The translations under genes were made by a program, and so were the position numbers. Of a stretch of 54,344 nucleotides of DNA, positions 48,995 to 53,550 are shown piece by piece (the first letter of the stretch is position 1; every line of letters starts with the position of its first letter). This DNA is from an uncultured Flavobacteriales bacterium (GTDB lineage: Bacteria > Bacteroidota > Bacteroidia > Flavobacteriales_D > Crocinitomicaceae), in assembly GCA_903945495.1 (NCBI GenBank), contig CAJAVU010000058.1, positions 1-54,344 of the forward strand. The letters are read 5' to 3'. The notes beneath the pieces were generated by a model. The model saw nothing but the letters and a program-made list of their open reading frames with translations, did not search any database and had not been told where the DNA came from.

Positions 48995-50584
48995 TTAAGA
49001 TTCTCGAATAATTACAAAATCTGGATCAAAAGGATCAATGAAACTATGTAACTGAGCAATTTTCGCGCTCACTTTCCCGTCTGCACACATTGAAATCAAG
49101 TTCATTGTACGTTCCTGCATTCCACCGTTTGGAAACAATTTTTCAAATATTTGGTCAATTGCTTTAAGTCCCGCATCATGTCGCTGCTTCACATTTCTGG
49201 TAAGTTTTTCCTTAATGCCTTCAAGTTGCTTTTGCATTTTTATTGTTTCTGCAAGTGCATATTTGTCCAAATTAGGATCAATCGCATCAATTTTATCAAT
49301 GATGGCCATTCTTAATTCCTCAAATTGTAGATCAATCTTTTCGAAATCAATTTCTTCAGAAGCATTTTCAGCTAAATAGTGCTTTTTAACATCCGAACTA
49401 TCTTTAAATAAATCTTCCAAAACAATTTCCGCTTTGTCCAAACGCTTAGAAGTTCCAGCATCTACCCACAAAAGCGAAGAACGCACTTGAATTAAAGGAT
49501 AAACCAATTCGATAGCATCAAATACTCCCTTTAATTGCAACCAATAAGATATTTCACCAACACCACCAACATAGCATAGATTTGGAAGTATAGTTTCTTG
49601 ATAAACGGGGCGTAAAATAACATTTGGAGAGAAACATTCAGGCTGATTGTTCACTAATTGAATCAATTCATCGTAGGAAAATTTCCCTTTCCCTTCTATA
49701 AAAAACCCTTCATCCAAATGCAAAATACGCTCGCGAATCTGATCTTCAATATAAAACAAGTTTATTTCACGCGCATTGACTTGCAATTTCAATCCTTCTT
49801 TTTGGATTTGTTCATTTGTCTTATGAACTGCATGAAACGAAAATTGTTCCTTCAATTCTTTTTCAACAAGGGGAATAATTGCATTTTTCAATTCTCGTTG
49901 ATCTCCGTCTACGACAATTAAACCATATGCTCCAAACAATTTATTGACTAGATTGAACGTAGCTTCGGCCAAATTTCCTCCATCATAGGCGTCAAAAATT
50001 GCTTGAATTTCACTCTCAGGTTGATTTTCAAAAAAGCCAGCAATCTCTTTCTTTAAACTGTCCAATCCGTCCAAACTAAATCTTCCAACTGGTCCAGTTT
50101 GAGTAGAATCCCATGTCATCTGACGATTAAACACTTCAACCGACTGAATTTCTTCAAAGTCATGATCTTCTGAAGCCATCCAAAACACAGGTACAAAGTG
50201 ATTTTCAGGATTGTTTTTGTTCAATTCCTCGGCTGTACGAATAACATGAAGAATTTTATAAATAAAGTAAATAGGTCCTGTAAAAATCGACAACTGATGA
50301 CCTGTTGTGATGGTAAATGTAGAAGATTTCTCAAGAAGATTGAGGTTCTTTTTTTGCTCAACTGTCGTTAATTCACCTGCATAATTTGCGTTTAAAACTT
50401 TCACCAAACGTTCTCTACTTTCTTTCGAGAAATTCGCTTCCTTTAAGTCAATTTGCTTTTCATAATTCGCTTCTGAAAACGTTTGACCAATAAAAGGTAA
50501 TACTTGTTCTTGATTGTATGCCAACTGATTTTGTTGATCTGTAAAAAGACCCGTCAACTGTCGGTGAAATGTAAATTTATGCAT
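48995..50584 (-). CDS. bshC: Bacillithiol biosynthesis cysteine-adding enzyme BshC
   Basis: 529 residues. Adds cysteine to glucosaminyl-malate in the last step of bacillithiol synthesis. Characteristic segments: TITTGHQLSIFTGPIYFIYK, VPVFWMASEDHDFEEIQSVE, GLIVVDGDQRELKN and YVGGVGEISYWLQLKG. A coiled-coil insertion (~430-480) is typical. Length is normal for the family. bshA and bshB are not in the window. The start is fixed by a -7 box 4 nt upstream. Confidence 0.96.
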   Translation of the reverse strand: MHKFTFHRQLTGLFTDQQNQLAYNQEQVLPFIGQTFSEANYEKQIDLKEANFSKESRERLVKVLNANYAGELTTVEQKKNLNLLEKSSTFTITTGHQLSIFTGPIYFIYKILHVIRTAEELNKNNPENHFVPVFWMASEDHDFEEIQSVEVFNRQMTWDSTQTGPVGRFSLDGLDSLKKEIAGFFENQPESEIQAIFDAYDGGNLAEATFNLVNKLFGAYGLIVVDGDQRELKNAIIPLVEKELKEQFSFHAVHKTNEQIQKEGLKLQVNAREINLFYIEDQIRERILHLDEGFFIEGKGKFSYDELIQLVNNQPECFSPNVILRPVYQETILPNLCYVGGVGEISYWLQLKGVFDAIELVYPLIQVRSSLLWVDAGTSKRLDKAEIVLEDLFKDSSDVKKHYLAENASEEIDFEKIDLQFEELRMAIIDKIDAIDPNLDKYALAETIKMQKQLEGIKEKLTRNVKQRHDAGLKAIDQIFEKLFPNGGMQERTMNLISMCADGKVSAKIAQLHSFIDPFDPDFVIIRES

Positions 50585-50772: not shown

Positions 50773-51225
50773 ATGGAAGCAATAATCAAAACAAATAAAG
50801 GAGACATGCGTGTTTCTTTGTACACAGAAGATGCACCAAATACAGTGGCAAACTTCGTGAAATTGGCGAAAGAAGGATTTTACAACGGCTTGAAATGGCA
50901 CCGCGTTCTTCCTGACTTTGTGATTCAAGGAGGTTGTCCAAATTCACGTGAAGGATCGAACGGAATGCCAGGAACAGGTGGACCAGGATACAAAATTGAT
51001 TGTGAATTAAGTGGTGGAAATCAACACCATGATAGAGGTGTGTTATCAATGGCACATGCTGGAAGAAACACTGGTGGATCACAATTTTTTGTTTGCCATT
51101 CTAGAAACAATACTGCCCATTTAGATGGAAATCATACATGTTTTGGTAAAGTAATTGAGGGGGTTGATATCGTTGATGACATTCGTCAAGGTGATTCTAT
51201 CGATGCAATTGAAATTATCGATTAA
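50773..51225 (+). CDS. Cyclophilin-type peptidyl-prolyl cis-trans isomerase
   Basis: 150 residues, cytosolic, with no signal. Catalytic-site segments: [16 protein letters not shown] (the usual FHR is WHR), [19 protein letters not shown], and [15 protein letters not shown]. The arginine of the HRV motif and the QFF residues are retained, so activity is expected. Accelerates proline isomerisation during protein folding. Monocistronic, followed by a strong terminator. Confidence 0.94.
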
Positions 51226-51822: not shown

Positions 51823-53550
51823 ATGAGTGATTTCGTTGTTTCAGCCAGAAAATATAGACCCCAGACTTTCGACACTGTCGTAGGTCAAAAATCTATTACC
51901 AATACGCTGAAAAACGCTATTAAAATCGATCACTTAGCACAAGCTTTTCTTTTTTGTGGTTCACGTGGAGTTGGTAAAACAACTACTGCCCGAATTTTAG
52001 CAAAAACAATTAACTGTTTTAATCGAACAGAAGCTGTTGAGGCGTGCGATCAATGTGATTCGTGTTTGTCGTTTAATTCTGGAGCATCCTTGAATGTATA
52101 TGAATTAGATGCCGCTTCAAATAACTCAGTTGAAGATATTCGTAACTTAATTGATCAAGTGCGCATTGCACCGCAATTGGGTGATTATAAAGTGTATATC
52201 ATTGATGAGGTTCACATGTTGTCTTCTTCGGCATTCAATGCTTTTTTGAAAACATTAGAAGAGCCACCAAAACATGCGATTTTCATTTTAGCAACCACTG
52301 AAAAGCATAAAATCATTCCGACGATTCTTTCGCGTTGTCAAATTTTTGACTTCAGTCGAATCAAAGTGAAAGATATTGCAGACCATTTGGCATCCATTGC
52401 AACAAAAGAAGGAATTACCGCGGATCCTGAAGCCTTGCATTTAATTGCACAAAAAGCGGATGGGGCTTTACGTGATGCACTTTCAATTTTCGATCAAATT
52501 GTAACGTTTACGGGGAACAACCTAACATACAAAAGCGTTATCGAAAACTTAAACATTCTGGATTATGATTATTACTTCAGAATTGTTGAAAGCATGCAGA
52601 AAGAGGACATTCCATCTGCTTTATTGTTGTTAAATGATATTTATGAAAAAGGATTTGATGGACACAACTTCATTGTTGGATTAGCAGATCATTTCAGAAA
52701 CTTATTGGTTTGTAAAGATGTACGAACGGCTTCGTTACTAGAAGTTGGAGAAAACATCGAGCAAAAATACATTGATCAATCCAAGCAGCTGGATGCACAC
52801 ATTATCTTACGTTCACTTGCTATTTTGAGTAAGTCGGATGTGGATTATAAGTCTTCCAAAAATCAGCGCTTGCTGGTCGAAATGGCCATGATGCAATTAT
52901 GTTCCTTGAACCAGGAGCTCGAAAAAAAAAAATGGCTGACGGACCCCGTTGACATTATTCCTTTCCCAAGTCAAAATTTACGCGATAACGTTCCGGCAAC
53001 ACCAAAGCCGAATGCGCCAATTGTGCGTCAAGCGCCACTTGTTGAGCATGTTGAACCTAAAAACGTGAGTGTTCCAATCGGAAAACTAAGCTCTTCTACC
53101 CTTTCCATCAAGCAATTGATGGAGAAAAAAGAAGAGGAACAAGCCGCTTCGAACATCATGCCAGAGAACATGCCAATGAATTCTTTTTCATACGATCAAG
53201 TGAAAATGTTATGGCGTCGTTTCGCCTTCGAGATGAAGGAAAGAGGAATGGAAACCTTCTACAACGCCATGGTAAAGCGTGAACCAATCCAGAAAACAGA
53301 AACACATTTTGTGATGGATGTGGACAATCAAATTCAAGTCGATTATATTACGCCTCATTTACAAGAAATGACAGGATTCTTCCGAAAAGAATTGAAAAAC
53401 TATTCCTTCGAAGTAAGTTTCTCCTTGAATGAAAATCCGGAACAAGAAGTGAAATACCTTACAGGAAAAGATAAGTTTGCAGCATTGGCGCGCAAGAATC
53501 CGAACTTACACACCTTAAAAACAACGTTCAACTTGGATATTGAGTTCTAA
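51823..53550 (+). CDS. dnaX: DNA polymerase III subunit gamma/tau
   Basis: 575 residues from ATG 51823 (MSDFVVSARKYRPQTF), the canonical DnaX start; the TTG at 51784 is the promoter -33 element. AAA+ clamp-loader ATPase: Walker A GSRGVGKTT (46-54), zinc ligands C65/C75/C78/C81 (ACDQCDSC), Walker B YIIDEVHML (125-133), and sensor-1/SRC (LSRCQIF). Domain III ends near residue 365. At 367-370 the codons GAA-AAA-AAA-AAA contain 11 consecutive A residues (52922-52932). A one-base change there ends translation at residue 371 or 376, which would produce a gamma-like protein. The tau-specific part follows, with a proline-rich linker and a C-terminal domain. Confidence 0.96.
   Translation: MSDFVVSARKYRPQTFDTVVGQKSITNTLKNAIKIDHLAQAFLFCGSRGVGKTTTARILAKTINCFNRTEAVEACDQCDSCLSFNSGASLNVYELDAASNNSVEDIRNLIDQVRIAPQLGDYKVYIIDEVHMLSSSAFNAFLKTLEEPPKHAIFILATTEKHKIIPTILSRCQIFDFSRIKVKDIADHLASIATKEGITADPEALHLIAQKADGALRDALSIFDQIVTFTGNNLTYKSVIENLNILDYDYYFRIVESMQKEDIPSALLLLNDIYEKGFDGHNFIVGLADHFRNLLVCKDVRTASLLEVGENIEQKYIDQSKQLDAHIILRSLAILSKSDVDYKSSKNQRLLVEMAMMQLCSLNQELEKKKWLTDPVDIIPFPSQNLRDNVPATPKPNAPIVRQAPLVEHVEPKNVSVPIGKLSSSTLSIKQLMEKKEEEQAASNIMPENMPMNSFSYDQVKMLWRRFAFEMKERGMETFYNAMVKREPIQKTETHFVMDVDNQIQVDYITPHLQEMTGFFRKELKNYSFEVSFSLNENPEQEVKYLTGKDKFAALARKNPNLHTLKTTFNLDIEF
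52913..52952 (+). other. Predicted dnaX slippage/frameshift site (gamma/tau)
   Basis: AGGAG (52913-52917), 4 nt, then 11 consecutive A residues (52922-52932). Reading with one A fewer meets TGA at 52937-52939. Reading with one A more, or a -1 ribosomal shift, meets TGA at 52950-52952. A short hairpin ACGG-ACC-CCGT lies 6 nt downstream of the run. This is the arrangement known from dnaX genes that make both tau and gamma; occurrence in this organism is inferred. Confidence 0.7.

Follow-up and report, generated by a model that had tools for sequence, protein, structure and literature searches.

Organization of the dnaX locus

The window, i.e. the whole 54,344-nucleotide stretch of DNA that was analysed (contig CAJAVU010000058.1 of assembly GCA_903945495.1, from an uncultured Flavobacteriales bacterium), carries a dnaX reading frame on the + strand, which starts with ATG at 51823 and ends with a stop codon at 53548–53550 (Table 1). 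It gave the only match over the cut-off of TIGR02397 in the whole genome, and this match ended at 52902. A run of 11 A was read as GAA AAA AAA AAA TGG from residue 367, and the Pfam match to domain III stopped at residue 368, which placed the run at the gamma/tau boundary. With one A fewer, the sequence was read as EKKNG and then TGA (52937–52939); with one A more, it was read as EKKKMADGPR and then TGA (52950–52952). The run at the boundary, the early TGA stops in both alternative frames and an AGGAG separated from the run by 4 nt (CTCG) had been described in the initial annotation, and all of them were confirmed. Two neighbouring ORFs were observed at 48995–50584 (– strand) and 50773–51225 (+ strand); judged by their translations, the former is presumably BshC (bacillithiol synthesis), and the latter we take to be a cyclophilin-type peptidyl-prolyl isomerase.

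Table 1. Features of the dnaX locus in the window
Feature	Position	Strand	Basis
dnaX (575 aa), with full-length tau as the templated product	51823..53550	+	TIGR02397 and Pfam profile matches
Predicted RNA hairpin, 5' arm, GTTCCT	52901..52906	+	Fold prediction, f1 consensus stem, covariation
Predicted RNA hairpin, 3' arm, AGGAGC, containing AGGAG (52913–52917)	52913..52918	+	Fold, codon bias, covariation
A11 slippery run (A10 in genus relatives)	52922..52932	+	Sequence and alignment of relatives
TGA after residue 371, ends gamma; reached with one A fewer or two more	52937..52939	+	Frame reading
TGA after residue 376, ends gamma; reached with one A more or a –1 ribosomal shift	52950..52952	+	Frame reading
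tau-specific part, read in frame in the window and in the –1 frame in most f1 loci	52933..53547	+	Comparison with relatives

Collection of dnaX junctions from relatives

Relatives were collected from the family of the window genome (family code f1), where 228 of 240 genomes searched were matched, and from 80 named Bacteroidota loci, 177 order genomes and 391 phylum genomes, of which only part was fetched. From 394 sequences, 365 had an N-terminal match, 361 of these reached residue 355, and 336 distinct junctions were obtained (143 from f1, 34 from the order, 74 named and 85 from the phylum sample). The sampled regions were best matches plus a hand-picked spread rather than a random sample. 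The 43 loci without a run of nine A were kept among the 336, and three loci with a run and no tau frame were left out of the 290 used for frame counts. Loci L037 and L039 were assigned to f1 by similarity. Two metagenome-assembled genomes titled Chryseobacterium gleum and Chitinophaga pinensis (L033 and L035) carry an f1-type dnaX, and their titles look wrong. Trees were made by FastTree or quick IQ-TREE and have many open forks; the numbers of changes given below are therefore minima on one tree.

Among the matches listed, most of the f1 dnaX open frames ended near residue 370–400, and in one genus of the phylum sample (code g64) every open frame listed was only 361–378 aa long. An open frame of about 590 aa without a stop was found among the listed f1 matches only in the window genome, G122 and G207, with G203 containing one stop. 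The G203 locus (L006) has ten A and tau in phase 0 and nevertheless meets a stop in that frame directly behind the run, owing either to a second downstream indel or to an assembly fault; it was kept in the counts.

Conservation of the A-run and changes of the tau frame

An A-run of at least nine was present at the junction in 293 of the 336 distinct loci, and it was exactly ten A long in 246 of them. In f1, 127 of 143 distinct loci keep at least nine A, so that the run is not broken by AAG codons in close relatives, a break that would have counted against the reading in the initial annotation; the exception is a sub-clade of 16 loci described below. Elsewhere the run was kept in 166 of 193 loci, and most of the 27 lacking it belong to Bacteroidales or to distant families of the phylum and have tau in frame. 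In 160-nt control windows, runs of at least nine were found in 0.14% (f1) and 0% (others) of those taken from domains I–III of dnaX, and in 0.9% of those from the tau part. The 3.64-Mb genome of the window contains 24 distinct A/T runs of at least ten, four of which are 11 long and none longer. Four of the 24 fall in open frames of at least 200 aa, and only that of dnaX lies beyond 19 codons from the 5' end of its frame. By the run counts of the genome and by the control windows, the A11 at the dnaX junction is more than chance. A test on lysine codons (679 AAA codons inside runs, log10 P –113) was discarded, because its sites had been chosen for having runs.

The frame in which tau is written was found to be free. 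Of the 246 A10 loci, 89 have tau in frame, 148 have it in the –1 frame and 9 in the +1 frame, and this frame changed at least 23 times on a FastTree tree of domains I–III. Since the run remained A10 through these changes, most of them lie outside the run. The codon phase of the run was also variable: among the 135 A10 loci that do not belong to f1, its first A lies on codon position 1 in 22, on position 2 in 81 and on position 3 in 32, and this position changed at least 19 times over all A10 loci. L335, L342 and L345 are identical over 30 nt plus the A10, and yet tau is in the –1 frame in the first two and in frame in the third. Tau in the +1 frame behind 9–11 A was observed in L285, L286, L288, L289, L290, L291, L294, L300, L266, L352, L106 and L305. 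These 12 loci with a run of at least nine include that of G258, which lies on one 3.98-Mb contig. Production of tau from +1-frame loci needs two A more or one A fewer, and not a –1 ribosomal shift.

Both frames other than that of tau were closed early. A stop within six codons in both of them was found in 255 of 290 loci (125/127 in f1 and 130/163 in the others), compared with 10–18% at control positions. The tau-frame codons following the run in f1 were biased toward out-of-frame stops: Leu was encoded only by CTG, CTA or TTA (109/109), Thr by ACT or ACG in 108 of 110 cases, and Val by GTT (giving GTTGA) in 71 of 88 cases against a background of 48%. Synonyms that remove the out-of-frame stops were avoided in these codons, which correspond to 52933–52952 of the window. 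One stopped frame would suffice if ribosomes only shifted by –1.

Comparison of the window with its genus

The nearest relative among the matches listed, G082, has ten A and shows 98% amino acid identity over residues 1–372. The nucleotide identity was 83% over 2,504 columns, the stretch around the run being nearly identical, and the sole indel between the two dnaX coding sequences is the one extra A in the window. Each of the 18 distinct genus loci fetched carries ten A and places tau in the –1 frame, and the window departs from this pattern. The in-frame arrangement given in the initial annotation is thus true of the window itself and exceptional in its surroundings, because most of the sampled f1 loci template gamma and would need a slip for tau.

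This comparison implies that one base swaps the templated product, unless an A10 was miscounted as A11 in sequencing or assembly, in which case the true genome would have tau out of frame like the rest of its genus. Such a miscount is a real though minor possibility: homopolymers are error-prone, the 18 genus loci all have A10, and no 16S was found in the assembly, which consists of 114 contigs. Against it, four of the 24 long runs of the genome were counted as 11, and the f1 loci of G122 (A11) and G207 (A14) likewise have tau in frame. The slippage reading proposed below stands unaffected whether the window has A10 or A11.

A predicted hairpin upstream of the run

A 22-mer of the window was predicted to fold at –6.8 kcal/mol with six pairs, forming the stem GTTCCT/AGGAGC 3 nt before the run. 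This hairpin taken alone was unexceptional (z of –0.29 over 53 nt). Over the relatives, the 26 nt upstream of the run gave a mean z of –1.97 in f1 (70 of the 127 loci) and about –1.55 in 163 others, compared with –0.95 to +0.29 (f1) and –0.48 to +0.10 (others) in other windows. When loci were collected into 42 family-level groups, which are partly dependent because NCBI names and anonymous codes overlap, the mean z was –1.28 upstream, –0.01 in the control and –0.06 downstream (Wilcoxon, 2.7e-7 and 1.8e-6), and a z below –1 was found in 26, 4 and 2 groups, respectively. The signal was weak or absent in Bacteroidales, f13, f15, f16, Chitinophagaceae and Saprospiraceae, so the hairpin cannot be essential. 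No stem-loop was found downstream of the run, where z was +1.07 and –0.27 in the window and mean z ranged from –0.65 to +0.15 over downstream windows. An Rfam search of 52780–53120 with matches up to E 10 returned chance-level matches only, with no dnaX family among them.

The hairpin sequences differed between groups, as exemplified by CTCTATCA-CTTT-TGATGGAG-A10 in Flavobacteriaceae and GACCTCTCTG-TGAA-CGGAGAGGTC-A10 in Rufibacter. At least four of five stem pairs were formed in 124 of 127 f1 loci. Third-codon positions –17 and –8 paired in 83 of 117 distinct f1 sequences, compared with a mean of 45.9 and a maximum of 58 in 1000 shuffles. Correction for the tree left at most nine supported independent pairs of changes, about five with the stem and 0.2 against it, an under-powered comparison with a median p of 0.06. 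In Flavobacteriaceae (30 distinct sequences) most pairs were no better than in shuffles, the stem being too conserved to test. The outer pairs –22/–3 and –16/–9 were unpaired in most f1 sequences.

AGGAG had been regarded in the initial annotation as a possible SD-like element. Its sequence forms the 3' arm of the predicted hairpin, and its spacing from the run varies over the loci; a reading of the motif as SD only was dropped for these reasons. What survived is a possible additional role. The Glu codon at this site was GAG in 116 of 125 cases in f1, against a background of 25%, and in 78 of 117 sequences GAG leaves a G-U pair at a position where GAA would fit the stem better. The hairpin does not explain all of the GAG conservation, and AGGAG may have a second, SD-like role. 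A pattern search and Rfam SSU models found no 16S, and hence no anti-SD tail, in the assembly of the window.

A sub-clade without the run

In 16 f1 loci (L121–L132, L134–L136 and L138; genus codes g7, g9, g12, g13 and g18) no run of at least nine was found and dnaX was still split. They sit in one supported clade together with an A10 locus (L133, g19), and the run is lost in these 16. Three of them (L123, L129 and L131) have A_AAA_AAG in frame. In six, no more than about 10 nt separate the –1-frame stop from the gamma stop downstream of it, leaving little room for a –1 shift. ATC was found beside the gamma stop (ATCTTAA-like) in 14 of the 16 loci, the background of ATC among Ile codons being 20%, and in L122, L132 and L138 an ATG or GTG overlaps the gamma stop. 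In these 16 loci the tau part may be made separately, as a polypeptide of its own, possibly from a non-standard start.

A proposed mechanism of polymerase slippage

The near-constant run length, the indifference to tau frame and codon phase, the stops in both non-tau frames and the hairpin upstream rather than downstream of the run favour slippage of RNA polymerase, which the initial annotation had also preferred to ribosomal frameshifting. We consider it likely that transcription of dnaX slips at this site in a programmed way, probably with the aid of a hairpin in the nascent RNA. When RNA polymerase reaches the end of the run, its RNA–DNA hybrid of 9–10 bp would be entirely rA:dT, and the nascent RNA just behind the hybrid would fold into a hairpin abutting the run. 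The polymerase might then pause or lose its grip and realign, giving mRNAs with 10, 11, 12 or more A. One of the mRNA frames would be translated into tau, i.e. the clamp loader part followed by the C-terminal tau part, and translation in the other two would end a few codons on, yielding gamma (371–376 aa in the window). Because all frames would be made, the templated frame would hardly matter, and a single base change would swap the templated product. We infer that slippage occurs at this site, that RNA polymerase is what slips, that the hairpin helps and that both proteins are made.

A hairpin lying 0–3 nt before a run of ten A would be 10–13 nt behind the RNA end. This distance is close to the spacing of a hairpin pause. 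A hybrid of 9–10 bp and slippage of Thermus dnaX on nine A have been reported (PMC5009743, PMC1088944), and, according to PMC5009743, an adjacent nascent stem-loop stimulates slippage in a Roseiflexus IS and a single change can reverse the roles.

With some hesitation, we lean toward a wider form of this proposal, as far as the sampled sequences allow. A core replisome gene would be read through a dedicated transcriptional slippage device Bacteroidota-wide, with about ten A matched to the hybrid and often lying behind a pause-spaced hairpin, and the tau frame would be nearly neutral and would drift among the three frames.

Alternative mechanisms

A –1 programmed ribosomal frameshift as in E. 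coli dnaX, with AGGAG acting like a Shine–Dalgarno sequence, was the most probable of the other mechanisms, and is itself improbable. The run contains A_AAA_AAA heptamers, and such a shift would yield gamma in species with an in-frame A11 and tau in the common –1 class. SD-like cores were enriched in the 16 nt upstream (72/163 versus about 10%; in f1 42/127 versus about 8–9%), as was pairing to CACCUCCU (51% versus 17%; in f1 34% versus 17%), and GAG was favoured beyond the need of the hairpin. These features do not account for the 12 loci with a run of at least nine and tau in the +1 frame, which a single –1 shift could not reach, or for the early stops in the third frame. The downstream structure is lacking as well, and the purine motif lies 0–4 nt from the run instead of the 8–11 nt given in PMC6321510, where –1 shifting by 70S ribosomes is also described as being lowered by an upstream hairpin adjoining the site. 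The enriched SD-like motifs lie at a spacing of 0–2 nt and within the hairpin arm, compared with about 8–14 nt for the element of an E. coli-type shift.

All frames would be visited as well if ribosomes slid in either direction on the poly-A run of a homogeneous mRNA, and sliding on iterated AAA codons has been reported (PMC4363877). We regard this as rather less probable still, because sliding fails to predict a run length fixed at that of the RNA–DNA hybrid and an indifference to the number of whole AAA codons in the run. Replication slippage, which would make the run a hypermutable contingency tract and turn tau on in some cells and off in others, might be suggested by the difference of one A between the window and its nearest relative. 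It is very hard to reconcile with a tau frame that changed 23 times or more across the tree while the run stayed A10, and with the A10 shared by 18/18 distinct genus loci; turning off a replisome subunit also seems implausible. RNA polymerase slippage remains the preferred reading.

Implications and comparison with known systems

If polymerase slippage takes place as proposed, stuttering of the polymerase would specify an essential replication protein in much of a phylum, and which protein is made could hardly be told from the genomic reading frame. In many genomes dnaX would then be cut short or misjudged by automatic annotation, as with the short open frames of g64. The loci would also allow the effects of run length, frame and upstream hairpin on slippage to be compared in natural variants, among them a sub-clade that has lost the run, and would bear on whether gamma is generally needed. 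A literature search found no demonstrated dnaX slippage in this group, and an upstream hairpin, frame drift or phylum-wide scale for Bacteroidota dnaX was not found in print, subscription papers being mostly outside the search.

In E. coli dnaX, a –1 ribosomal frameshift occurs at A_AAA_AAG with the help of an SD-like element and a downstream stem-loop. The loci described here share with it the gene, the place, an upstream GAG-containing purine motif and, if both are made, the two products. They differ from it in the spacing of the motif, in their indifference to frame and in having neither a downstream stem-loop nor an Rfam dnaX match.

In slippage of the Thermus type, gamma and tau are both made at a ratio of about 1:1. 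As described for Thermus thermophilus dnaX, where slippage yields gamma (PMC1088944, PMC5009743), the window has a sense-strand A-run at the gamma/tau boundary, tau in frame and both other frames stopped. Unlike the A9 of Thermus, the runs here are A10–A11, an upstream hairpin is enriched and the templated frame is reversed in most of the sampled f1 relatives; the present case is one read from DNA sequence.

A two-ORF type of dnaX with tau needing recoding was described as a 'novel type' by GeneTack in 17 genes of 12 genera, nine of them with ten A, and transcriptional slippage was suggested for it in 2013 (PMC3711429). Here 148 loci match that type in having ten A at the junction and tau in the –1 frame. 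The –1-frame tau was seen in 18/18 distinct loci of the genus and not in the window, where tau is in frame. The available text of PMC3711429 mentions no upstream hairpin, +1 class or repeated switching, all of which belong to the present set.

The Roseiflexus IS630 element has a nascent-RNA stem-loop directly 5' of its slippery motif (PMC5009743), as is predicted for the loci described here. In that account the motif is T5C5, the slip is a one-base deletion and the gene encodes a transposase, in contrast to the homopolymer in a replication gene of many families described here. Slippage on poly-A has also been reported for tssM1 (A11) of Citrobacter rodentium and tssM3 of Yersinia, a secretion gene in two species, with tssM1 demonstrated by mass spectrometry of RT-PCR products (PMC4256274). 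These are two orthologues in which the slip gives the longer protein in one case and the shorter in the other, as is proposed here for the dnaX loci.
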